Source: Monodelphis domestica
Lineage: Eukaryota > Chordata > Mammalia > Didelphimorphia > Didelphidae
Length of the DNA stretch: 64,000 nt
Direction: 5' to 3'
NCBI RefSeq assembly: GCF_027887165.1
Contig: NC_077227.1
Location: 439,075,612-439,139,611, forward strand
Numbering within the stretch: position 1 is the first letter of the stretch; each line of letters starts with the position of its first letter. A model generated the notes under the pieces. The model worked only from the letters and a program-made list of their open reading frames with translations, had not been told where the DNA came from and did not search any database. This document shows positions 3,094 to 62,098 of the stretch, piece after piece. Both the position numbers and the translations under genes were made by a program.

Positions 3094-3204
3094 TCACTCC
3101 TGCTCTTTGCTAGGTTTCTTATCACTCTGTGGTGGTGTGAGGACTCCAGAGGGAGCAGACACTTTCTCATCAGCCAGAATGGCTTGCTTTTCATAAGCTC
3201 TGTC
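3094..3204 (-). CDS. CCNE1: CCNE1 last coding exon: C-terminal FBW7 degron
   Basis: Acceptor TTTTAG at 3206-3205. Encodes residues 697-732, beginning DRAYEKQA and ending KEQE-stop. Contains SGVLTPPQS, equivalent to human SGLLTPPQS, whose phosphorylated Thr380/Ser384 is read by the SCF-FBW7 ubiquitin ligase. Turnover control therefore looks intact despite the altered N-terminus. Confidence 0.95.
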   Translation of the reverse strand, partial: DRAYEKQAILADEKVSAPSGVLTPPQSDKKPSKEQE

Positions 3205-6200
3205 CTAAAATAAGACCAAAGGAGATAAATGTCAATGGTAAAAAAAAGTATCCTTTTGACTTAATATTTATTTACCAGTTGCTGAAGTGCAGCCACACAA
3301 TAATGTTTAAATTCTATTATGCTTTCAAAACTGCCCCTTATAGTAAGGTGGTTGAACAAATAAATGTTACTTCTGAGTAAAATCAGTCTTACATTCAGAA
3401 GTGATAATGTGGGGGTACGAATGGGCTGCTTTTAAAAGGGGAAAATGATCAATTTCATATTATCATAATAATGTACATCCAGAATTAGGTTCAGTTCCTC
3501 AGTGAATTTTTTCCCTCAACTGATTTCCTAAAAATCTACTTTAAGCTCACAAAAATATAAAGTGATGAGCCTCCTTCTACGATTTTTAAAAAAAGAATTA
3601 AATTGGTGGATATCTTTCTGGGATATTTACATATGGTCTGATTTGGGTAAAGGGACTACATGGACTGGAGAATGGTCACTTCTAGTAGGATGTCCTATTT
3701 TGTCATGAGAAAACATAAAGGTTATTACTGACCAGCAAGTTTATGGTGTTCACATGAGTTTGAATGTTGTGCATGTCTTCACTAGGAACACCCTTGAAAT
3801 ATTTGAGCCTGGCACCTCCTACTTCCTTTACAGCCATAGCAAATGGGACCATCCACTTCACGCACTCCTCTACTTCTGGCCAATCAAAGCCTAGAAAGTA
3901 AAGTGAAAATTGTGCTCGATCTAAAGCTTACACGAGGACATGTCAAGTTTATATATATATATATACTTCAACTTCATTTGAAATCCAACTTACCTGAAAC
4001 TTTTTTCATTATCTCAGTGGAAGAGAAATGATACAGGGCAGATGCAGCCAGCACTCCATAAGTAAAGTCAAAGCAGCCCATATCCAGGATGCAGACATCT
4101 AAAAGCTACAGAGGGGGCCAAAAACATGATAGAAAACAAGCCAGTATGTCAATAAACACAACCCTATGAAATTTACTCAAGATGGATGGAACGCCACACA
4201 AAATGGGATGAGTGGTATGTGCTGGGACTTACCTCAGCAACTTGCACAAAGATTTGCTGAGGATATTGTGGCATGAGCACTTCTTCATACAGGTCATTGA
4301 GATAAGCCACCTGCATGTATACATTTAACCAGGACACAAGTGTCATGGGGCTTAAACGCCACTTCAGAGCCTAGAATAAAATAGAAGGAGGAAAGGAGGA
4401 GGCAAATTAGAGGTCAACAGCAAAACCAAGGATAATGGAGTACCCTGGCATGCAGTGGTAGACTGCCATACAAATAATCGACCACCTTCAGAGTTACAAT
4501 ATGTCCACATAGAGGTCATTACTTAATTTAGAGAATATGATAATTAGGTATACAATTGAAGATGAATCAAATGCAAATAGGCAATTGCTTTCATCCTTGA
4601 AGAAATTCTCCATGAAGATTGAGCAGAAAATGTTTTATAAATCATTAGTAACTTACCTTCATAATGATTAATTCCATGGTAAGAATCTCTTCTTCTGTAC
4701 AAGCTCCATCTGTCACATAAGCAAACTGGTACAGCTTTGGTGGATAGATTTCCTGAAAGAAAAAAAAATGAAAGAAAATCATCATTACCATCAAAGCCAA
4801 ACACTGATATCTCTATGCCATAGTGTCTATTCAAATACCCTATTATCTGCTTTTGCTGAACCAACAGAAGTACAAAAACACAAAGATTTCTATCTCTGAC
4901 TCATATATTTGGAATCCTAGCATCTTTAAATGGTTAATTCATAGCAATATGTACATGATAAATATAAGAGCCCAACAGTAGTCAAGATGCAAATGAAAAT
5001 CTGAAAGAAATTAATGAACTATGCTTGCTACCATATACCTTTAGAGCAATTTTTTTTGCCCCCTTAATGATCCTAGTTTCCCATTTAAAAGTTGGACTGT
5101 AACTTAACCCAAGTTGCCAAGATTAAGACTGTTTGCTCCATCCAAACCATATTATTAGCCCAAAAGTAGGGTACTTTCCATACTATAAAAAAAAAATAGT
5201 CTGTATTCTAAATATGAACAGATTTCCTACCTCATTGAAGCATACATCTAGTACTAACATAAAAACTTGAACAAGTTTTACCTCAAGTTTGGCAGCTATA
5301 AATAATGAGGTAATCCCAATAAGCTGCAAAAGGGTTTTTGTAATATTTCGCTGTGTTGCCATATATCGATCAAAGAAGTCTTGTGCCAAGTAATACGTCT
5401 CCCTGTGAAGTTTATAGACTTCAGACACCTGAAAAAATAGTTAATAAGTTTTAGTACATTTACCTGAAAGAATGTTTTTCATGGACTTTCAATGTTTTAC
5501 TTTTAGACAAAACAGCAAAAACAAAAGTACTGACACATTTGCTTTTCTCCACTCTAACCCATAAGGGTACTTATTTATAGAACTTGAGCCTTAGTTAATA
5601 TGGTCCAACTCTTCTAAGTTCTACATATAGGTTCATTACTTAGAGAACAAAATAATTGTTTTCAAGAGAGAACCCCTTAAGTAATTCCCACAAAAAATTA
5701 TCAACCCCTAAAAATTAAACCTTAAAAACATTTTGGCTTGAGTATCACATACCATATATGGTTTATGGTTTAAAGAGTAAAAAGTTAAATAAACATCAGG
5801 ATACAGTCATTTAAAGACAACATTCTAAGGCACAAAGTCAGACTTCAGAGGCATCATAGTACAGTAGAAATATCAATGGATCAAGAGGAGACCCTGTCAC
5901 TTACTCCGTGAATGTGTCTGTATCCTCATTTGAAAAACAGGGAAAACTTCCCAGCCTAACTGGTTGTTGTGAGGAGTTTATGAGAATCTCTGTGAAGTTG
6001 CTCTGTAAATGATAATTTGCTAGACAAATGTAAGGGATCATCACAAAAGCTAATAATGCACACTAAGTCTTTCTAGGAATAGCATATGCCAACATTAACA
6101 TGTTAATGTTTGGAAATTTGGTTAGGCAAGAATCTAAATTGTATATAAGCAAAGGGTCTATATATATGGGGGGAGGGGAGAGGGTAATTGAAAGAATAAG

Positions 6201-9200
6201 GAGACAGAAATTGGTGTAAGCAAAATAAGTTTGTGAAAATTCCTTTAGCAGGCCTGGCACCATTTCTAATGATTAGGATAAACTAATATTCCTGGCCAAT
6301 ATTCAAGTTCCACCATTATATTTTAGAACAGAAGTAAAACCTAACTTTAGAAATGAAACTATTGTTTATAAGACAAACTTTCAGATATCCTTCACTAAGC
6401 TCAAAATATAGCACCTGCCAGTAACAGTATGGGCACCTTTTTCATATGCAAAAATCACAGTTGTGATCAGAATTAGGTTTCTTAACTTCTCTGACTTTTA
6501 AACTATTACTTATTGTGAGAAACCCAGAAGAAGCTGAATTGGTAACATAGTTAAAAGCTGTAGTAAACTTTTAACAATAGAAATGTTTGTTCTAGAGACA
6601 AATTAGAAAAGAAAAACAGAATTACTTTGATGTCCATGTTTTGGAAATGAGAAAGGAAATGAATACTCCATGGATTCAAAAAAGAACCAGAATACCAAAT
6701 TCAAAGAATTCTTTGTGAATGAGAAAAATGTGATCATCCTACTTGCTTATACCATACTGTCACAGTTAATGCCAATAGCCAAACTCACCTCCATCATCCA
6801 ATCCAGAAGAATGGATCGCATTCTTGGCTGTAGAGAAGGATGTCTCTCCATGAAGTTCTTATCCCTCAGGTATACCTGTTCTTTACTTAACATAATTTTC
6901 CAAACCTCATCTCTATTTGCCCAGCTATAAAAAATGAAACACTTGTTAGTGTGCCTAAAAGTTAGTAAAAGGCAAGTTGTAGTGAAAGAGATAAAGGCAT
7001 AGAGGCAAGTGTGGCAGGTTAAATACTTACCCCAATAATGGTAATGGTGTAGCTCTATGTTGGGAGAAATTGTGAGTTGGCATATTAGAATTAGGTAGTG
7101 ATGGCTCATCCCCTCCTTTGTCAGGTGTGAGAATCACTGACCAGGGATTTCTGAGAAAAGCCTGTTCAAGGAAAACATCCTTTTAGGTAATGGGTCACTC
7201 AGAATGATTCTCAATACAGAGAATATTAATGATTTTTTATATCTGACTATTCATTAAAAAAATTTCACACCACAGGAAAAATGTGTTAGTTTCATTATCT
7301 TAATTAAAGCAGAATCCTACATTTTGTAGGTAAAAAGGAAATGAATACAAGTCTAGATGAGGGATTTTTAACCTTTTTGGCAATCAGGCAAGACTATGGA
7401 CCCCTTCCTAGAGTTTTGTTCTTTAGCATATAAAATAAAGAGGATTACAAAAGAAATAAATTACATTGAAATATACTCATCAAAATATTTAACAATTCAT
7501 AAACTCAGTGAAACCTGTTCAGAGATCCCATATTAAGAACCCCTTGTCTAGATTAATCTCAAAAATTCATTAGTTTTGTCTTTCACCTAGCAAGCACCAT
7601 CTATTTACAATTTCTTTCCTGGACACATTCTTCATTCCCTTTTGTACCATTTTATAAAAGATTTCTGGGCTTTTGATTTTACTTATCTAAAAAAAGATTT
7701 ACTTATATAAAGTTGCAGACCACTTTACAAGAACATTACCATTTTAAATAGAGAAGAAAAAAAGAGACAAAGTAAATCTATTCTACAACAAGATATTTGC
7801 TTTAATCTGGCTCTCTATATTCAAGACTATGAAAATAAAATTGCCCAAACCAAACTAACTTGCCAACTTTTGCAGTAGCAAGTTTGAAATAAAAATGTAT
7901 CAATTGCTGCACCTTTCATATTCAGGATAGAGGTAACTAGCATACCTTTTTAGGTAGCTACCTATTATATCTCTCTTAAATTGAAAGTCTGTTTCTGAAT
8001 GTTTTGTATAGAACATGTTTTATATGGAACAATGTATCTGTTCTATATTTGTAAAGTACTAAAAAAAATACTAAAAAAAACTCTTGAAAGAATCAAAATG
8101 CTTGACACATTTAAAGTACTATTCTATTTTTAAGGAAAATAAAATAAGAAATAAATCTAGCATTGTGAGAACAAAAATTAATGCCTTCTATAAAAACCAT
8201 AAAAACAGAAAACCAAAACATTAAAGACCACCTTTGCAGTCTAAATGTATCCCAAATGTTATAGTGGTCTCAGCTGAAGTGCTGGAATACTTGATTTCTA
8301 TTCAAATATGGAAAGTTTTAGCAAAGTTTGAGTTGCATTAAGACTTGTTTTGTTAAGTTACCATATTTAATTTCTGGCCTTACAAATAATTTTAGACCCA
8401 ATTTTAGAAACTCCTCTCCCACTTTTTTTTGTTATTGTTTAACAAAGCAGCCATCTTACTGAAAATGTCAGTCAATTATGCCAGCATGGAAAGACTGTGG
8501 GAAATTACCAATCTTCTATTTCTTAATTGTCTTAATAAGGAGGGCAGTTATTTCTATTCTTTCTATTTATTAACGAGGGCAGTTATTAATGTTTAATATA
8601 GAATATTGAGATGATTGTAAATAAATGAAATCTAGTTTCTGGCTCAAAAGTAGTGTTGGTTAGGTAATAATTGATATTTTTTCAACACATTTTGCCTACC
8701 ATCCATTTTTCACTTGGGCTGCTTGTGCACTTTTCAAGCTGTTAAGATTATCTAATTTATAATCAAGCCCCCTTGCTCCTTATAAAATATAATTTCTTAC
8801 TCTGGAGCAGGAGAGCTCTAGACATTCAAGACTTCTCATCACAGCTCATGGGGTAACTTGTGTGAGAAAGGAAACCTCTCCCAATTAGTCTTTACCACTG
8901 TGCTGGTAGCAACTCGATTATTCAAGAGGCACATTAAGAGTGCTCTAAATTAATTTTACTGTTCTATCATTGGACCTGAAATCTTGTTTTGAGGGCACAA
9001 TCACAGTGCTATCTTCTCTGATCATGTAATTGACAATACTAAGAAAAGGCCATTGTAGATAAGCTGGCAGCCATTTTTAAACTACAAGTCAGGGAAGAGT
9101 TACAAGAGACCCAAGAACCCAAGAATACCTTAATTCTTCTCTAGAGGAGATATCTTACAGAAGAACTAGGTAAAGCAACAACACTACAACACTTCATGAA

Positions 9201-12200
9201 TTATACCCTAAAGATATACCTAACTTTTAAAGAGAGATTAGCCCAAATTCAAGAGGAGAGTTAGAGAAAGGACCATCTCTAATTCTTCATATATTTTCAA
9301 CTGAATAAGGCTCAGAAAAAAATCATATAAAATTTTTAGGTTTTTAGGGAATAATCAGAAAGCTAAGGTAATGTTCTAATGAAAAAAAATGGGATTCAGG
9401 GCTATAAAAATTTTGTGGCAACATGATGGATGTACTATTTTAGTCTTAGAACTTAATAAAATTACTACTAATATTTAGTAGAGGACCTGAAGATCAATAT
9501 TATACTAAGACTAGATATGGTTGTGATGAAGCAGTTTTTCAAAGATGGTATTACTAATGACATTTAAAGATAGTTCACAGTAACCTGTTTGTTATTCTTT
9601 TAATGAATTATAATAAATAATGCACTTATTTCAGCAGGTCAATAATTATTAACTTTTTAAAAGAATGATTATATTCATAAGCTGACTAAAGATTTCAATT
9701 ATATATCCAAATTCTAGCTTCACAAATTCATATCAAAGGCATTCTTCCCTAAGTAGGCTGATGAACTCAGATATCACTATATTTATAAAATAAATAGGAA
9801 TCTGTTCTGAGGATGTGGAAAATTATGATAAACCCTTAAAACATCTATGGCAGGGAATTGATACAAGTAAATTCAGTATGTATGACTATTCATATACCAC
9901 TGCTATGTGACCAGTTGAGATAAGATAGATAAACTAGATTATCTCAGATGAAGTATTATAAAGTACTTTGCCATTAGAACATGTTATATAGAGGCAAGAT
10001 ATTATCACATTCTAGTAATATATCAAAGGGCAAAAGACATGCTTAATTTGTTTCTCATTTAAGAAGTGGAAACATTTTTAAGTGTTTAAATTTTACAATA
10101 AATAACTAACCTAGTACCCACTCTTGCTGCTCTCTCTAAGAAATGAAGATATACCATAGTAGGTACATAAAGATTTTTAGGTGAGAGGGCATAAAACATA
10201 AATTTATTTTCTAATCAAAGAATACCAAATGGAATAGTTTTAAAATGGGGTGATAGCATCCTCATAATTGGGTTTGATTAAAGGATTGACTTAGAGAGGA
10301 TGAGGGAAAATAAAGAGAAAGGAATGACTACTTCTTTTATTAAACTGAAATACTTTTTTTTTTCCAATTGAGGAGAAAGTCATTCATCTCACTTTTCAAT
10401 ATTCAGTGAATCCTGCTAAGGAAGGATTGAATGTGTCTTTTATATTCAACTATGACTACCATTTCACACAATGCTGCCCATCTGTTATGAAGCACTTTAC
10501 TCTTTAAGGTTCCAGCTGCTACCTCTGTTTAGATGCAACACATTGTTCATTATCCTATGAAATGATGTACTGCTCATCCCCAACTTTGCAACACTTAACT
10601 TGGCTTAAATAAATATTCCTAGTCCTGTTCTTTATATGATGTTACAACATATGCCTGGGTCTGGGAGAGAGTGAGAAGTGCTTTCTCTAAATCCAAACTA
10701 TGACTATGGCCACCAGTCATTTCTGGAGATAAAGATAGTTTGGTTTCTTTTCATGATGAGCATCAGGTTTCACAATGTATAATTTTAGTGACTCTTTCTT
10801 AAGGGAAAGGAAAGAGAGACTAGTCACCTGAAATTCTGTAATGAAACATATTAATATATAAAATCTTCTACAAATACTTATACCTATTGAGGTCAGTTCA
10901 AAATCCAGTTGATAGTGACAATTTTAGTTGAGTACTAAATATACATAATAATCACTAGCCTGAAGTGGTGAAGTAGAGTCATCAAGTCACAAACTTAAGT
11001 CATTTTATTTAAGGCTATCATGTGCTTTTTGTAGAAGGAATACAAGAATTCCAAATAGGGAGAAGTCTTCATTTAGAACCTTTCTCTTTCAGAAACCACC
11101 ATTAACCCAATTACCCTGAGCTGTTTGTCCTTTTCCAGAAGATGTCTAAGATATATATTTCTAATTTGGTTTATATGTGAGATTGTACACTGGACAAAGA
11201 GGCTGGAGACCTTGATTTTAGGTCTGTCTGCCAGTATTAGCTTTGTTATCATAGGCAAATCATTTTACTTCTCTAGGACTCAGTTTTCTCTCCAGTAAAG
11301 GGAAATGCTTGAAACAGATGATTGCAAAGATCTTTTCCAGTTTTTATGTGACATCTAAAATCTAAGTGTCCAGAGTATTCCTAATGCGGGGAGAAGGGGT
11401 TGGCAGTCTACAGCTTGTTAAGAGCTGAGAATACATAGTTAGGCAAGGATTACCTTTAATTCAACTTTAATCATAATGAGTGAGGGAGAATAAAAGGGTG
11501 TAGTAAACATGTGATTATATAGTAAAGAGGGAGAAAACTAGAAAATTTAAAAATCTTCTTAATCATTGTCAAGAAATAACAATAATTATGCTTGAGGACT
11601 ATGAAGCTTACCGGTATCCTGACTGCAGTTCTTCCAATTGTTTCCCTTTTGGCCAAAACTTCATCTGGATCCAGCAAAAACTAAATCCAAAAAACACATT
11701 AAGCAAGAGGAAAAAAAACCCAAACAACACAAAACTGTAAGTGTAAAGTTTGATCAAGAGCTGTCTGTTCAAATCTAATCTTTTCTCCCACATTGCCTAA
11801 GTAAGGATCCTTATAGTCCCCGGACACGTGAGGTCTATAGCAGAGAAAGGTTCCCCATATTTTACCTCCCTTGTACTCACCACAGCTACATCTGCCTTTC
11901 TTTTCCTGGAGCGGGAAGAATCTGTTGAACCACTGCCTCTTTGCTCCCTTCCTGAGTCGGTTTCACTCTTCTTATTCTCTTCCTTCCCATCAGGGCTCCT
12001 TTCTTCTCTCCCATCTGCATGCTCATTAAGCCTAGGATTTTCCTTCCCATCAAAGAGCTCACCAGCACTTGGATCTTGTTTGTTATCCGGATTTGGGTCT
12101 TCCCTGCCATCGGGTTTTGGATCTTCCCTGCCATCTGGGGTTGGATTTTCCCTCCTATTGGGTCTTGGTTCATCTGTCCCATCAAAAAGCTCATGGAGAC

Positions 12201-13073
12201 TTGGATCTTGTTCCCCACAGATAAGCTCACGGAAGCTTGGATCTTCTTCTTCACAGATGAGATCAATGGGATTTGGGTCTTCTTCCTCACAAATGAAGTC
12301 ATCCTCCTCATCGGGGTGAAGAATTTCTTCTTCACAGATAAGATCAACATTTGGGTCTTCTTCCTCACAGATAAGGTCATCTGGATTTGGGTCTTCTTCC
12401 TCACAAATAAGCTCATCTGCATGGGGATCTTCCTCATCACAGATTAGCTCCTCAGGACTGGCCTCCTCTTCATCACACATAAGCTCATCAGGGCTGGGGT
12501 CTTCTTCACAGATCAGCTCATCAGCATTTGGGTCTTCTTCCTCACAGACTAGCTCATCTAAACTTGCTCCTTCCTCCTCACAGACAAGCTCATCTAAGCT
12601 TGCATCTTCCTCCTCACAGATAAGTTCATCTAAGCTTGCTCCTTCCTCCTCACAGACAAGCTCATCAGGGTTTGGATCTTCTTCCTCATAGATAACTTCA
12701 TCAAAACTTGGATCATCATCCCCATAGACAAGCTCATCAATACTTGGATCTTCCTCCCCATCGAAGAGCTCATCTGGGCTCGGCTCATGTGTCCCGTTCA
12801 TAGGCACGTCATGGCTTTGCTCATGAGTACCATTCATAAGCTCATCATGACTTGGCTCTTCCTTCCCATTCACAAGCTCATCAGGATTTGAATCTTCCTT
12901 CTCATCGACATGTTCTTCTTTCACATCCTGGGTAAATTCCTCCTTCTCCTGATATTCCTCGGAACCACTGCAAAATAAAGCCAATGGGGAGGGGGGTTAT
13001 TGGTAGGGGCTTTGCCCCTAAATCACCTTCTCTCTTACCCTGTCAGTGGAGATACTCACCTTTCTCTAGACAT
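3094..13073 (-). CDS. CCNE1: Cyclin E1 with an expanded LxCxE-repeat N-terminus (11 coding exons, 732 aa)
   Basis: G1/S cyclin; the partner of CDK2 in the nucleus, driving RB phosphorylation and S-phase entry. Coding pieces in transcript order: 13073-13060, 12967-11881, 11680-11612, 7161-7031, 6924-6789, 5428-5282, 4752-4657, 4370-4233, 4105-3994, 3890-3733, 3204-3094. All introns are GT-AG and the phases join without a stop. The start ATG (MSRE; human MPRE) follows an in-frame TGA in the same exon. Seen: RSRKRK nuclear signal (357-362), LTPDK N-terminal degron Thr402, cyclin box from about 435 with MRSIL (469-473), [14 protein letters not shown], and LTPPQS (Thr719/Ser723, matching human Thr380/Ser384, the FBW7 phosphodegron). 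Residues such as [20 protein letters not shown] and [10 protein letters not shown] match CCNE1 rather than CCNE2. Oddities: residues 30-333 are an acidic repeat absent from human, and the internal VDCLE is MGCFD. No transcript was available, so the splicing is predicted. Confidence 0.93.
3733..3890 (-). CDS. CCNE1: CCNE1 coding exon: C-terminal cyclin fold
   Basis: 158 nt, residues 645-696 plus the split Gly644. Acceptor CTTTCTAG, donor CTG|GTCAGT (one base off consensus). Encodes [18 protein letters not shown] and later [13 protein letters not shown], matching human [10 protein letters not shown] and HNIQTH. Confidence 0.95.
3994..4105 (-). CDS. CCNE1: CCNE1 coding exon carrying the degenerate VxCxE position
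   Basis: 112 nt, residues 607-643 plus split Gly644. Acceptor CTCTGTAG, donor CAG|GTAAGT. Encodes [17 protein letters not shown] then [16 protein letters not shown]. Human has VLDVDCLEFPYG here; the reported VxCxE motif (VDCLE) reads MGCFD, so both the Val and the Glu are changed. Confidence 0.95.
4233..4370 (-). CDS. CCNE1: CCNE1 coding exon: centrosome-targeting stretch
   Basis: 138 nt, residues 561-606. Acceptor TTCTAG, donor GAG|GTAAGT. Encodes [20 protein letters not shown] then [34 protein letters not shown] is identical to the human centrosomal localisation region. One extra Glu is present relative to human (LYEEVLMP against LHEVLLP). Confidence 0.96.
4657..4752 (-). CDS. CCNE1: CCNE1 coding exon: mid cyclin fold
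   Basis: 96 nt, residues 529-560. Acceptor CTTTCAG, donor AAG|GTAAGT. Encodes [18 protein letters not shown] then [14 protein letters not shown], close to human [18 protein letters not shown]. Confidence 0.96.
5282..5428 (-). CDS. CCNE1: CCNE1 coding exon: cyclin box core
   Basis: 147 nt, residues 480-528. Acceptor TTTTTTCAG, donor GAG|GTAAAA (weaker than consensus). Encodes [20 protein letters not shown] and RYMATQ, then [18 protein letters not shown], nearly identical to human cyclin E1. Confidence 0.96.
5826..6030 (+). repeat. MIR/THER1 SINE in an intron
   Basis: Reads atagtacagtagaaatatca through tgtatcctcatttgaaaaacaggg to ggttgttgtgaggagtttatga, the standard MIR order. Inserted antisense to the cyclin gene. 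Confidence 0.75.
6789..6924 (-). CDS. CCNE1: CCNE1 coding exon: start of cyclin box with MRSIL hydrophobic patch
   Basis: 136 nt, residues 435-479 plus split Gly434. Acceptor TTTATAG, donor GAG|GTGAGT. Encodes [15 protein letters not shown] through [13 protein letters not shown]. The MRSIL patch (human MRAIL) is the surface that binds RxL docking motifs in CDK substrates and in CIP/KIP inhibitors. Confidence 0.96.
7031..7161 (-). CDS. CCNE1: CCNE1 coding exon: N-terminal Thr-Pro degron
   Basis: 131 nt, residues 391-433 plus split Gly434. Acceptor CTTGAACAG, donor GG|GTAAGT. Encodes [19 protein letters not shown] and ends [13 protein letters not shown] aligns with human IPTPDK, the weaker Thr62 degron; PLPLLGW aligns with PLPVLSW. 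The 30 residues between are poorly conserved. Confidence 0.9.
7359..7545. mobile_element. hAT-type MITE with perfect 8-bp target duplication
   Basis: 187 bp bounded by imperfect terminal inverted repeats (GAGGGATTTTTAACC and the reverse of tattaagaacccctt). It is flanked on both sides by GTCTAGAT (7351-7358 and 7546-7553), the nTCTAGAn target typical of Charlie-like hAT elements. Further copies of the family are at 47281-47478 and, as a fragment, at 18886-18955. Confidence 0.8.
11175..11360 (+). repeat. MIR/THER1 fragment
   Basis: Contains aaatcattttacttctctaggactcagttttctctccagtaaaggg, a decayed MIR central-to-3' section. Confidence 0.6.
11612..11680 (-). CDS. CCNE1: CCNE1 coding exon, 23 codons
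   Basis: Residues 368-390, [16 protein letters not shown] then RTAVRIP. Acceptor GGATTTAG, donor CCG|GTAAGC. It directly continues the [11 protein letters not shown] end of the previous exon, as human RSRKRKANVTV continues into FLQDPDEEMAK, fixing both orthology and frame. Confidence 0.92.
11881..12967 (-). CDS. CCNE1: CCNE1 giant repeat exon (362 codons) with an LxCxE array
   Basis: 1087 nt with acceptor CTTTATTTTGCAG and donor GTG|GTGAGT. It begins [11 protein letters not shown] and ends with the nuclear signal [13 protein letters not shown] (human SARSRKRKANVTV). Between lie tandem 12-residue acidic units, consensus [12 protein letters not shown], from residue 30 to about 333. Early units read DELVNGKE or DELFDGEE, the core units carry LICEE/LVCEE, and the last units shrink to 8 residues (DPKPDGRE). 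The whole exon is open in the frame set by both neighbours and indels between units are multiples of three, which argues for selection on the protein. Human has about 22 residues here. Confidence 0.93.
11985..12894 (-). repeat. CCNE1: Coding minisatellite, 36-bp unit (12 codons), about 25 units
   Basis: On the minus strand the unit is roughly GATCCAAATCCTGATGAG followed by CTTATCTGTGAGGAAGAA. There are full 12-codon units, two 11-codon units, one 15-codon unit and several 8-codon units. Adjacent core units are the most alike (GASLDEL.CEEE occurs twice and DASLDEL.CEEE once), a pattern expected from unequal exchange. Likely length-polymorphic. Confidence 0.92.
12211..12660 (-). other. CCNE1: Array of 12 LxCxE pocket-protein docking motifs
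   Basis: Leu positions 108, 120, 132, 144, 156, 167, 179, 191, 203, 214, 241 and 253 of the predicted protein each begin a perfect LxCxE (LVCEE, LICEE, LMCDE, LICDE or LICGE); residue 229 begins FICEE. Each is preceded by Asp/Glu and followed by acidic residues, as in papillomavirus E7 (DLYCYE) and other high-affinity RB ligands. Binding to RB, p107 or p130 is inferred from the motif. Confidence 0.85.
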
Positions 13074-13103
13074 GATGGCAGATCTGGGGTTAAGACCTCA
13101 GTT
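13060..13103 (-). CDS. CCNE1: CCNE1 exon 2 with the start codon
   Basis: 44-nt exon; a strong acceptor (TCTTTCTGTCCCTCTAG) precedes it and donor AG|GTGAGT follows. A 30-nt leader with an in-frame TGA precedes ATG at 13073-13071 in the context GCCATCATG, closely matching the human CCCATCATG. Only MSRE and two bases of Ser5 are coded here. The in-frame stop excludes a longer N-terminus in this frame. Confidence 0.88.
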
Positions 13104-13624: not shown

Positions 13625-13676
13625 CCTCCGTTTCTCTTTCCTTACCTCTGCCTCCGTTTCTCTTTCCTTACCTCTG
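13625..13676 (-). repeat. Perfect 26-bp tandem duplication, each copy with a splice donor
   Basis: Two identical 26-base copies (13625-13650 and 13651-13676). On the minus strand each contains CAGAG|GTAAGG (exon ends at 13672 and 13646), and a third donor GGAG|GTGAGT follows (end 13626). They could serve an alternative CCNE1 first exon with heterogeneous 3' ends. Confidence 0.85.
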
Positions 13677-14202
13677 CCGCTGCTCTTTCTGGCAGGCGGC
13701 CACGCAGCTGGAATCCAGGTGGCAGAGGCAATGACAGAGCAAGGAAGGAGTTTAGGCAGGGATAGTCTCGTGAACCCGCTGGGCTACGGGCAGCACGTAC
13801 GGCGGACCCCACCGCGGACCCTCCTAGGCAAACCAGCAAGCAAGCAAGCTAGCGGACAGCGTGCCCTCCTCTGTCTCTACCTTTCCATCGGGCCAGAACC
13901 CATCTCCCACCCGCTTGCTCCCGCTCTGCTGGCTAGCTCGCTGCCCGCTTGCCGCTTGCTGGCTTGCTGGCTGGCGGGGCTGGCCCGCCCGCCCTCAGGG
14001 GCGGTGTTTGCGGCTCCCACTCCCCGCCCTCCTCCACCGATCTCCTGCCTCTGCCTGCAGCTCCTCCTGCCACGCCACACCGTTCGGAGTGTGGCCCTTG
14101 CTGGCTCTACCAGCTGGTTCTGACCCGCGGGAGCCGAAGGACGTGGAGCTCCGCTGACCCCAGCTGCAGTCACTGGGTTGGAAGGATGAGGATGCGAGTA
14201 CC

Positions 14203-14470: not shown

Positions 14471-14515
<45 letters not shown>
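14471..14515. repeat. CAG/CTG trinucleotide repeat (4 CAG, CAA, 10 CAG)
   Basis: Fifteen consecutive triplets with a single CAA interruption. On the cyclin strand it reads CTG and falls inside the predicted 5'UTR exon. Potentially length-variable. Confidence 0.97.
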
Positions 14516-14516
<1 letters not shown>

Positions 14517-14660
14517 CGCTGGCGGTGGAGGCGGAGGCGGTGGAGGCTGTGGCAGTGGAGCGGGAGGAGCTGGTGGGGGTGGTGGAGGCAGCGGCTGGGG
14601 TGGTGGAGGCGGCAGTGGCGGCAGCGGTGGCGGAGCTGGGGGCTGCTGGTGGATGCCCGC
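14516..14660. repeat. GGN/CCN triplet-rich stretch
   Basis: Long run of GGC/GGT/GGA triplets on the plus strand (CCN on the cyclin strand). It resembles the CCG-rich 5'UTR of CCNE1 in human. The poly-Pro/poly-Gly frames it creates lack ATG starts in the relevant frames and are not treated as genes. Confidence 0.85.
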
Positions 14661-14812
14661 AGGCGGCAGCTGGTGATCGGGGTTGGCCGAGGGAGGCAGG
14701 GTGAAGAGGAGGAGAGGCAAAGGCCTGAGGCGAAGAAGGAAGAGGCCAGAGGAGGCGAAGTTCGGAGCTCCTGGGCAGCTCTGGTGGGATGTGCAGGGCG
14801 CAGCTACCTTCC

Positions 14813-14818
14813 TTTATA
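14813..14818 (-). promoter_or_regulatory. CCNE1: TATA box on the cyclin strand
   Basis: Minus-strand GGGTATAAAGGAAGG inside the GC-rich island, directed toward CCNE1. It predicts a start site near 14788. TATA boxes are uncommon in CpG islands, so one in the right strand and place is meaningful. Confidence 0.55.
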
Positions 14819-15299
14819 CCCTGGCTGCCCGCGCCCCCCTCCAGCGGGACATTAAAAAAATATCTAAGGCGCGCAGTGGCCCCCCCACCCCACCCCCTCA
14901 TTTCTTCCCCTCCCCTCCCCCCACCTCACTCCCCTAATCCCCCCTCCCCCAAGTCTAGCCAGACCCAGTCTCAGTGCTTGAGTCGGGTCAAGGCCAGCTC
15001 TTTCTGCCTGGGTGTCGAGCTCTGGGGGTAGGGGGCATGGGGCCAGCAGCTCCGGATGAGAATCTACCCGCCCCCCCCCACGACCCCCTACAGTGCACAG
15101 GGAGCATGCGTACTGAAGTGCAGCTGCCTGGAGAAGGCGGGGTGGGGCCTCCTGGTGCTCAGGGAGAGAGAAGGGAGGGGGTGCTTGGAACTCCAGGGCG
15201 GGGGAAGGGAGGCGGGGCTCCTCCTTGCACCGCTGTTCTCTCTCAACAGCCAGAGCCGAAAAAAAAAAAAATAACCCTGCGTGGTCGCCTCCAGATCCA

Positions 15300-59799: not shown

Positions 59800-60080
59800 A
59801 GGTTGCTTTCAGAAGCATTTATTGGGCACCTCATATTGAACTCAAGAAATGTTTATTAGGCATCCATTGTTTTTAGAGTCCAGTGTTAGGTGTCCACCAG
59901 AGGTGGGAGCAGCAGGGGGAATATAAGAATAAATGAGCCATGGTCCCTGTGCTCAGGGAACTCATAGTCTAGTTGAGGAGATAAGACTAACACACCAGAA
60001 ATAGAGAATAATAAAATAATAATATAATATAATAAAAAGAATAATAAAAGAATAAAAAGGGAATAATAATAATAAAAGAT
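59800..60080 (-). repeat. L2 3' end, antisense, running into an (AATA)n tract
   Basis: gaagcatttattgggcacctc and tgctcagggaactcatagtctag are antisense L2. From about 60001 simple AATAAT units follow. Confidence 0.65.
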
Positions 60081-60727
60081 CACATTCAATACCAAATTGA
60101 TATAGATTTCATATGCGATAGGAGTTTGTTCACTGGACAATTTCATATTTTTTAGTATCTCTATATTGACTCTATCAGTCCTTCATTTGCTTCCCTCTGC
60201 CTGAGATAAAGACAAACACAAAAGATAGTCATTTTATAGATAGAAAATAGGGAAGTAAGGATGGCCATAAGAAAAAGCACAATAGGTAGGTGTCTACATT
60301 TAGTAGATACTAGTACCATTTGAGGGGATCAAGAAACATCCCAAAGTGTACCAGCCACCGTCATTTGTATCCCAATGGTTATTAATTCCTCAAAGTACTT
60401 TCCAAGAGAGGAAAAATCACACATAGAATAGGGATGTTTAAATAATGGGGCCACAAAGGGGAAAGTTCCAAGCATGAACTGCTTCTGGAATGGCAGATTT
60501 GAGTGAGGAATCATGGGAGATGGGGTTGGGGAACATGGAAGAATAAATACCAAGAGTAAGAAGAAATTTCATGCAAGAAGAAGTGAGAGACATCAGAGGC
60601 AAGAGTTACCAACTCCACAACTTCTCATAAGGCTAGTCCTAAATAGAACAACCCAATTGGGATTCAAAGCAATGAATATATGGCCTTGTCCTCTGTGGAC
60701 AGTCAATAATTGTCTTTGTGATGATGG

Positions 60728-61795
60728 TGAAGAAAAGGGAGAAAGGAGGAAGAAAGAGTAAAGTGAGGCAGAGAAGAAAAATTACAAGATGAAGGGGAGA
60801 AAAAATGAGAAAGGGAGTTAAAGAAGAAGTAGAAGGTGGGAAAAGAAGGGAGAACAAGAGGTGAAAAGAAAAGAAGGAGAAATAGAAAGAGAAGGAAAAT
60901 AAAGAAGATAAACAAGTAGAAAGAAAAGGAGGGAACAAAATAGGAGAACAAAGAAGGTCAAGAAGAAGCAAGATAAAATACGGAGCAAAAAATCAGGAAA
61001 AACTGAAAGAGAAGAGGAAAAGCCAGGAGGAGAAACAAGGAGGAGAGAGTTGATGTAGCTGGAGAAATGGCAAGAGTCAAAAATATTTGTAGAAGGATAA
61101 AAAGTGGGAGGATATTGAAGGGAAAGAGAAATAAGAGGAGGGGTTAGAGAGGGAAAGATGAAGGAGAATGCAAGAGGAGAGGAAGAACAACATCGAGGAG
61201 AACTAGTAGAAAATGAAGAGGATGGAAAAGGAGCTAGACAAGATAAAGGAGAAGAAAAGAAAGCAGGAGATAGAAAAAGTCCAAGGAGAAGAGAAAAGGA
61301 CAGGAATGAGAGAAGAAAAATAGAAGAAAGGAAAAGGGAAAGAGGAGATGGGAGGAGAAAGAAAAGGAAATGCAGGAGGAAAGTAGAAAGAAAAGAAACA
61401 GACAGAAAAGGGAAAGGAAGAAGAGCAAGAGTTAGAAGAGAAAAAAAGAGCAAAAAAAAAAAAAGATGCAAAATCCAGAGGAGAAACGGGAGCAGTAAAA
61501 AAGGCAGAAAGAAATTAAGAGATGGGAAAAGAATGGAAAGAGAAGTAGCAGAAGATAGGAGAAAAAGAAGGAGAAGGAACAGAAAATGATAAAAACAGAA
61601 AGGTAATTTTAAAAAAGAAGAAGGAAAAGGAAGAAGAGAAAGACAAGAAAGAAAAGGAAGAATGAAAAAGTAATAGGACAAAACAGAGCATGGAAGTAAA
61701 AGCAGTAGAAGATGGAGGAAGAGAAAGAAAAGGAAGGCAGCAGAGGGGAGGAGGAGGAGATGGAGGAGAAAGAGGCGGTGGGAAAAGAGATGAAA
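60728..61795. repeat. Polypurine tract, about 1.07 kb
   Basis: The plus strand is almost entirely A and G (GAA, GGA and AAG mixtures without a clean period). Pyrimidines are scattered singly. The long pyrimidine-strand frame it opens is a low-complexity artefact. Confidence 0.95.
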
Positions 61796-62098
61796 TGGAC
61801 CAGCGTCAATACATAATTGGAGCCACATTTTGGTATCCTAAACAGCTGGACAGTGTTACTGTCACTGTGACTAAACAGGAAGGAGCTGAATGGGACAAGC
61901 AGGTTAATGGCTTCCAAGGCCAATTGGCACTGATACTTTTTTGTACAATTTACTAATTTTCTCAAATGAGAAGGATGGAGAAAAGTGTTCATTTTTGAGA
62001 TGCAAATTTGCTATTGAACACGGAGCCTTTAAAGCCACCCAATTACAGAAAGTGCTTGACAATCTCTTTGAGTCTTTCATTTGCTGGGCTAGAATAAT
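61796..62098. other. Repeat-free block, possible conserved noncoding element
   Basis: Balanced-composition, single-copy-looking sequence between the polypurine tract and the TG repeat. No gene is recognised. Confidence 0.25.

Follow-up and report, generated by a model that had tools for sequence, protein, structure and literature searches.

The stretch analysed here, a 64,000-nucleotide window of the opossum Monodelphis domestica (assembly GCF_027887165.1, contig NC_077227.1, positions 439,075,612–439,139,611), carries CCNE1, the gene for cyclin E1, in which one N-terminal exon encodes 12 tandem LxCxE motifs. From sequence comparison, we consider it probable that these motifs form a selected, multivalent docking array for the pocket proteins RB, p107 and p130, which tethers cyclin E1–CDK2 to them and replaces the VxCxE pocket site in the cyclin fold.

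The gene lies on the minus strand, as do all of its features given below in window coordinates, with its 5′ untranslated region (UTR) at about 14.9 kb and its stop codon at 3.09 kb; the 11 coding exons have AG/GT borders and join in frame to give a protein of 732 residues. The array is contained in exon 3 (11881–12967; 1087 nt), which has the acceptor ..ttttgcag, the donor gtgagt and no stop, consists of 362 whole codons beyond a split codon and is captured in spliced form in a retrocopy described below. The modelled protein has exactly 12 LxCxE motifs, starting at residues 108, 120, 132, 144, 156, 167, 179, 191, 203, 214, 241 and 253, with start-to-start spacings of 12, 12, 12, 12, 11, 12, 12, 12, 11, 27 and 12 residues. 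In the codon table, the array occupies 12211–12660, with motifs 1–6 at 12646–12660, 12610–12624, 12574–12588, 12538–12552, 12502–12516 and 12469–12483, and motifs 7–12 at 12433–12447, 12397–12411, 12361–12375, 12328–12342, 12247–12261 and 12211–12225. The 27-residue gap holds a 13th, degenerate unit, FICEE, at residue 229 (12283–12297 in the codon table and the alignment), which reads LICEE in wallaby and wombat; 12 of the 13 units thus have the LxCxE core. Cysteine-free units on either side share the acidic plan DELxxGEEDPS. Those on the 5′ side (12661–12894, residues 30–107) belong to the same 36-base repeat (Tandem Repeats Finder, TRF, period 36) and were aligned in six marsupials, and those on the 3′ side (12022–12210, translated as ELFDGTDEP.. 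and PDGREDPN..) show TRF periods of 24 and 36 bases. The 3′ end of the exon encodes a basic stretch, SRSRKRK, the counterpart of the basic stretch in other cyclin E1 proteins.

Residues 108–257 have a net charge of −68 with a single basic residue (Lys/Arg), and Asp and Glu make up 46% of the array residues, a composition that makes disorder of this tail likely; an AlphaFold prediction for the Gracilinanus protein from a 10-row alignment (mean predicted local distance difference test score, pLDDT, of 33) was uninformative and was not used. All 12 motifs fit the ELM pattern for LxCxE ligands, with acidic flanks and a hydrophobic or Pro/Ala residue soon after the motif. An earlier, sequence-only reading of this DNA had described 12 motifs at about 12-residue spacing in an acidic setting at these residues and window positions of a cyclin E1, giving no strand; the spliced model confirms the count, spacing, position and acidity, and the fold ranking and ortholog search described below confirm the identity of the protein. 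In 20,000 residue shuffles of the exon 3 protein, at most three LxCxE motifs were obtained, a comparison that makes the array look more improbable than it is, as tandem duplication and not 12 independent events produced the copies; retention of the motif is better evidence than this count. An origin of the array by chance or artefact was rejected, given the retrocopy, the orthologs in other species and the tests of motif retention.

Among 5.8 billion proteins searched, 149 relatives were identified, of which the best 120 were used; these are representatives of clusters at 90% identity, and other marsupials may therefore be hidden among the clusters. Five of the 120 carry the array, all deposited as G1/S-specific cyclin-E1 and all database protein models: Gracilinanus agilis (734 residues, 12 LxCxE), Trichosurus vulpecula (733 residues, 12), Sarcophilus harrisii (746 residues, 12), Notamacropus eugenii (723 residues, 11) and Vombatus ursinus (712 residues, 10). 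The marsupial comparison proposed in the sequence-only reading thus finds the array in five further species, spanning the American and Australian sides of the marsupial tree, and the Monodelphis protein is 98% identical to that of G. agilis. Among the other 115 listed relatives, which include platypus, dog, rabbit, birds, reptiles, amphibians, fishes and cyclin E2, 107 have no LxCxE and eight have one. The interpretation given in the sequence-only reading, a multivalent RB-family ligand, is partly supported; it overlooked the VDCLE pocket site that ordinary cyclin E1 already has, discussed below. In the alignment, the array sits between an MRRES-like start, as in bird and turtle, and RKRKADVA, the other N-termini being short, so that the N-terminal coding exon seems to have swollen from inside.

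The assignment to cyclin E1 is clear from the fold. Entries for cyclin E1 in the Protein Data Bank (PDB) matched with E values of about 1e-144 to 1e-153 (2.4e-153 for human cyclin E1 with a 299-residue core query), against about 1e-30 for cyclin A2 and about 1e-20 for cyclin D1, which is far below cyclin E1 and excludes a D-type fold; in the protein search, cyclin E1 proteins outrank cyclin E2. No second CCNE1 gene was found among 45 genome matches to dog CCNE1. The comparison covered nine other loci (L035–L040, L044, L049 and L058), each of which is closer to CCNE2, and did not extend to the weaker matches of no more than 46% identity; the CCNE1-type places are the exons of the window gene and one broken retrocopy. 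An ordinary second CCNE1 elsewhere was accordingly rejected within the range of the loci compared. Among the CCNE2-like loci, L035–L039 are intronless cyclin E2 copies (C2:166.94 and 167.03 Mb, C7:239.47 Mb, C1:385.28 and 410.33 Mb), and the two on C2 have long open frames of 388 and 317 codons with no stop inside the match.

Selective retention of the Leu, Cys and Glu of the motif is well supported by comparison of the six marsupials. When the units were aligned across species by MAFFT, with Trichosurus having an extra unit and possibly being one register off, the pairwise differences were 0/172 at Cys, 0/160 at the last Glu and 8/172 at Leu, the last confined to one of 13 columns, that of the FICEE unit; the two x positions differ in 24/172 and 14/155, the residue after the motif in 14/157 and the linkers in 213/1025 (21%). 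The sequence-only reading had named unconstrained change at L, C and E among marsupials as contrary evidence; such change was tested for and not seen. Within the opossum array, the L, C and E codons show 84 silent and 12 replacement differences over all unit pairs (pN/pS 0.03), compared with pN/pS of 0.35 at the x positions and 0.5–1.18 in the flanks. In all six species, every cysteine of residues 11–380 lies inside an [LF]xCxE unit.

The retrocopy provides both a record of a past mRNA and a neutral control. It is an intronless copy of CCNE1 at C1:407.51 Mb, 31.6 Mb from the gene, and covers part of the 5′ UTR exon, the repeat exon, all later exons (exon 9 partially) and the 3′ UTR, with an exact junction between the repeat exon and exon 4. 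It is dead, with nine premature in-frame stops on parent-aligned codons (the ordinary stop excluded) and several frame shifts. It is also old, with 0.15 changes per 0-fold site in the cyclin part. Fifteen residues distinguish the two opossums from the four Australian species; of these, the copy shares four with the opossums, eight with the Australian species and three with neither. Its separation from the gene thus probably dates to an early stage of opossum history or before. It records a spliced transcript with the array from far back in marsupial history, and says nothing of present-day expression. The sequence-only reading had pointed to skipping of this exon as a possible objection; the retrocopy answers this for the past only, in that a former transcript included exon 3. 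Exon 3 skipping was rejected as a candidate, as the retrocopy contains the exon and skipping would drop the basic stretch SRSRKRK and, the length of 1087 nt not being a multiple of three, shift the frame.

The units of the dead copy read LIDEE, LICEE, LMCNE, LICEE, FMCKE, HI*EK, LIYEE and LSFWE, so that three of eight LxCxE motifs are left by eye, or three of nine if LVYEE is taken as a former LxCxE, as the alignment has it. In neutral simulations (4000 runs per rate), 0.15 changes per site leave 0.39 of the motifs, close to what the dead copy shows, and at least 10 of 12 motifs survive with a frequency of 0.002. At 0.10 changes per site, 0.52 of the motifs survive and at least 10 of 12 are kept with a frequency of 0.027; at 0.20 and 0.25, none of the 4000 runs retained 10 motifs.

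The gain of the array is accompanied by the loss of a pocket site in the cyclin fold. A review that refers to Dowdy 1993 and Kelly 1998 describes the VDCLE sequence of human cyclin E1 as regulating contact with RB1, p107 and p130 (PMC8652076). The residues aligned to VDCLE (9nyq_B) are MGCFD in Monodelphis (4067–4081, counted by hand from exon 10). The site could be read by pattern in 95 of 122 sequences, 27 being unread (one of them the exon itself); it is MGCFD in 6/6 marsupials and in 0/89 other readable sequences, of which 66 have [VI]xCxE. The site is variable among the other listed sequences as well, and MGCFD is therefore a lost feature rather than the sign of a different gene; since ordinary cyclin E1 has a pocket site that is lost in these marsupials, replacement or upgrading of a contact is more probable than the gain of an entirely new one. 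In the fold and tail, 14 columns are unique to marsupials where 55 other sequences, mostly from amniotes, are conserved to 90% or more, a count that includes three C-terminal tail columns and two gap states (12 without the latter, which the control counts omit). The same test gave 0–1 in six other clades, these controls having one to four sequences each and being mostly younger than the marsupial stem, and 21 in platypus, which we attribute, without proof, to a faulty, mis-spliced gene model. Among marsupials the cyclin fold hardly varies (62/4470 pairwise, 0.014). Together, the private columns and this low variation indicate change on the marsupial stem followed by near stasis, and the array, the VxCxE loss and the fold changes may be linked. 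The private residues of the five deposited proteins also include a one-residue insertion, DLYEEVLMP against DLYEVLLP (window 3094–6924).

The prospective partners are present in the same genome, in which RB1, RBL1 and RBL2, named by resemblance, were all found. Opossum RB1 retains the cleft segments IMMCSMYGICKVKN and FYN, which correspond to the segments with Y709, K713, Y756 and N757 in human numbering. The N757F substitution reportedly impairs the binding of LxCxE proteins (PMC4987141), and LxCxE lies extended on the B subdomain of the pocket, leaving the E2F groove uncovered (PMC12197514). The parts of the other two clefts that were read are MCAIYVMAKV in p130 and LCAFYIMAKV in p107. Opossum RB1 also keeps the C-terminal contact KPLKKLRFDIEG. 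In the same gene (C4:320896400–320906300), a Leu directly follows FYN (FYNLVF) and the protein has REGQYD, where human RB1 has Ser and KEEEYD; these differences are a possible co-change with the array.

We infer the following course of events and mode of action, including the disorder of the tail, pocket binding, avidity, kinase tethering and the replacement of VxCxE. On the lineage to living marsupials, a 36-base unit in the N-terminal CCNE1 exon would have been duplicated in tandem, one unit would have gained LxCxE and multiplied to 10–13 copies, and the weaker VxCxE pocket site of the cyclin fold would have been lost. The result would be an acidic, probably disordered tail with many interchangeable LxCxE ligands for the B-pocket cleft of RB, p107 and p130. 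As the motifs are 11–12 residues apart and the partner is a domain, neighbouring sites could hardly be filled together; one pocket protein would be bound at once, or a few on well separated units, and rapid rebinding would raise avidity and dwell time. With the LxCxE cleft separate from the E2F groove, cyclin E1–CDK2 could stay on RB–E2F complexes and phosphorylate RB efficiently. A more far-reaching version, which we offer tentatively as a possibility, is that the marsupial stem rewired the input to RB: the VxCxE contact would have been swapped for an array of 10–13 units, the changes in the fold would then have frozen, and S-phase commitment would have become switch-like and led by E cyclins, with cyclin E1 acting as a multivalent antagonist of RB, p107 and p130 that phosphorylates RB and empties LxCxE clefts, those of DREAM included, with little help from D-type cyclins.

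Several points weigh against a selected array that serves as the kinase dock. In vitro, the LxCxE of cyclin D makes only a modest contribution to RB phosphorylation (PMC12871278), and cyclin E/CDK2 is described as recognizing pRB via C-terminal RxL motifs (PMC2082274); the RxL contact of RB1 (KPLKKLRF) and the hydrophobic patch MRSIL of cyclin E1 are both kept, so that docking would not depend on the array. Conservation extends to the cysteine-free units on the 5′ side (pairwise differences of 0.069), and the constraint is therefore not confined to the motif, the whole tail being somewhat constrained. For the contrast between motif columns and the rest, the p of 1e-5 from column shuffling is too small, as neither columns nor species are independent and the alignment procedure may itself give preference to motifs; in the LMCDE unit, it also assigned x and E from three species to linker columns. 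In the cyclin part, gene and retrocopy differ by 0.152 changes per 0-fold, 0.268 per 2-fold and 0.151 per 4-fold site, and since 4-fold sites differ no more than 0-fold sites, the age of the retrocopy is uncertain. Exon 2 with the present start codon was not recognized in the retrocopy, where about 25 bases before exon 3 are unexplained, so that the old transcript may have begun differently.

A serious rival to tethering, or a second function beside it, is that the array acts as a cellular counterpart of the viral RB binders: it would fill the LxCxE cleft of p107, p130 and RB and displace LIN52 (in DREAM) and LxCxE chromatin partners, giving positive feedback on E2F/DREAM targets once cyclin E1 accumulates. 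We regard this as rather doubtful as the main function, and blocking and tethering may both hold. A competitor would need just such a many-copy ligand, but cyclin E1 is usually scarce relative to the pocket proteins. Entry of p130 and p107 into DREAM is by an LxCxE-dependent LIN52 contact, and LxCxE partners potentially compete for RB (PMC11126580); that the LxCxE of cyclin D is not the main kinase dock (PMC12871278) likewise agrees with blocking, whereas E7 needs its folded CR3 as well to displace E2F (PMC12197514). The array might instead stabilize complexes of p107 or p130 with cyclin E1–CDK2 and restrain the kinase as a brake or buffer. All three pocket genes are present, but an array of this kind would be expected to hold RB too, and even though p107 and p130 make stable inhibitory complexes with cyclin E/A–CDK2, we think this explanation unlikely.

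Other readings dispense with the pocket proteins. An acidic repeat selected for a different partner (histones, metal or another domain), with LxCxE incidental, would account for the DELxxGEEDPS plan shared by the cysteine-free units on both sides and for the good conservation of the 5′ ones; variation is lowest exactly at L, C and E, the cysteines of residues 11–380 are placed in [LF]xCxE units in all six species and pocket proteins are known substrates of the cyclin E kinase, all of which makes this reading improbable. Least credible of all is a neutral coding minisatellite whose copies are alike through recent duplication or gene conversion. Its signs would be the varying number of LxCxE motifs (10–12), the likeness in DNA of array units 1–4 (4–5 differences per 30 bases between neighbours) and the use of TGT for 13/13 cysteine codons, but silent changes are common at the L and E codons where replacements are nearly absent, and the motifs are retained on both marsupial sides and mostly lost in the dead copy.

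Compared with cyclin E1 of other vertebrates, the marsupial protein is similar in its cyclin fold, hydrophobic patch and C-terminal LTPPQS degron; the other listed proteins are mostly of about 400–450 residues with a short N-terminus and usually [VI]xCxE, whereas those of marsupials have 712–746 residues, the array and MGCFD. D-type cyclins carry their LxCxE at the extreme N-terminus. These G1 cyclins (animal CCND and plant CYCD) likewise contact RB through LxCxE (PMC12871278, PMC12197514), with a single motif of modest contribution in place of 10–12 in the long acidic tail of a CDK2 cyclin. The closest precedents found for several motifs in one protein are viral, with two each: polyomavirus superT antigen has two copies through splicing of wrap-around or tandem viral transcripts (PMC9007360), unlike the marsupial array, which is fixed in the genome, and JC virus small t antigen, which binds the RB family, has two LxCxE about 60 residues apart and no repeat array (PMC2868895). 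Papillomavirus E7 and similar viral proteins with one LxCxE are also acidic, disordered pocket ligands (PMC12197514); E7 combines its motif with folded CR3, whereas marsupial cyclin E1 has no CR3-like part and the carrier of the motif is a kinase subunit. No description of the array was found in literature on cyclin E, LxCxE (tandem or multiple LxCxE included) and marsupials, among the titles and beginnings of abstracts listed and with subscription journals mostly outside. Positive selection in marsupials has been reported for a p53-network set that includes CCNE1, which the main text names once, in a table (PMC6406535).

The switch formed by cyclin E–CDK2, RB and E2F is among the most studied in the animal cell cycle and is usually taken as identical in all mammals. 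A gain of 10–12 RB-docking motifs with loss of the usual site would mean that the wiring in marsupials differs from that of other mammals, and the array suggests that marsupials rewired the commitment of cells to division. Whether the G1/S threshold depends on the strength and valency of docking is debated for D- and E-type cyclins, and the array may serve as a natural experiment on this point and as a candidate multivalent ligand of the RB family that already exists in nature. There may also be implications for cell biology and cancer in marsupials, including the Tasmanian devil, in whose deposited cyclin E1 the array is present.

The remainder of the gene model is as follows. Part of the 5′ untranslated exon lies at 14655–14903, delimited as the stretch captured in the retrocopy (71% match to L003, 853–1122). 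Exon 2 (13060–13103, coding part 13060–13073) supplies the start codon within the first 14 coding bases (ATG TCT AGA GAA AG, then gtgagt; MSRE and a split codon), its 5′ border being placed after ..ccctctag from the sequence. Exon 4 (11612–11680) joins directly to exon 3 in the retrocopy, and exon 5 (7031–7161) contains ILTPDK. By the gene model and fold alignment, the cyclin fold begins in exon 6 (6789–6924), which has the hydrophobic patch MRSIL, and continues through exons 7 (5282–5428), 8 (4657–4752), 9 (4233–4370) and 10 (3994–4105), the last holding the former VxCxE site; exon 11 (3733–3890) follows in the gene model, and exon 12 (3094–3204) has the C-terminal LTPPQS phosphodegron and the stop codon. 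The N-terminal TPDK degron region in exon 5 (7161–7031) differs from its human counterpart, LIPTPDKEDD, and the C-terminal LTPPQS degron (3204–3094) is retained; given the N-terminal degron sequence, turnover of cyclin E1 may differ in marsupials.

Searches with exon 3 alone gave no further proteins (among proteins of about 199–633 residues, with the 8000 best word-sharers scored) and no match in the PDB. The exon weakly matches (21–31% identity) many long open frames at C4:362–399 Mb and C3:75–79 Mb, which we would guess are zinc-finger gene clusters matched by chance. No exons of the neighbours C19orf12 and URI1 were found within the 64-kb window with the human proteins as queries, and an Rfam search gave no match. 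Near the 5′ end of CCNE1, a CAG tract is followed by GGC/GGT-rich repeats (14471–14619), and a perfect 26-base tandem duplication lies upstream of exon 2 (13625–13678). At 60001–62000, the window shows extreme strand asymmetry, with a GC skew of up to 0.62, an AT skew of up to 0.59 and a purine-rich plus strand.

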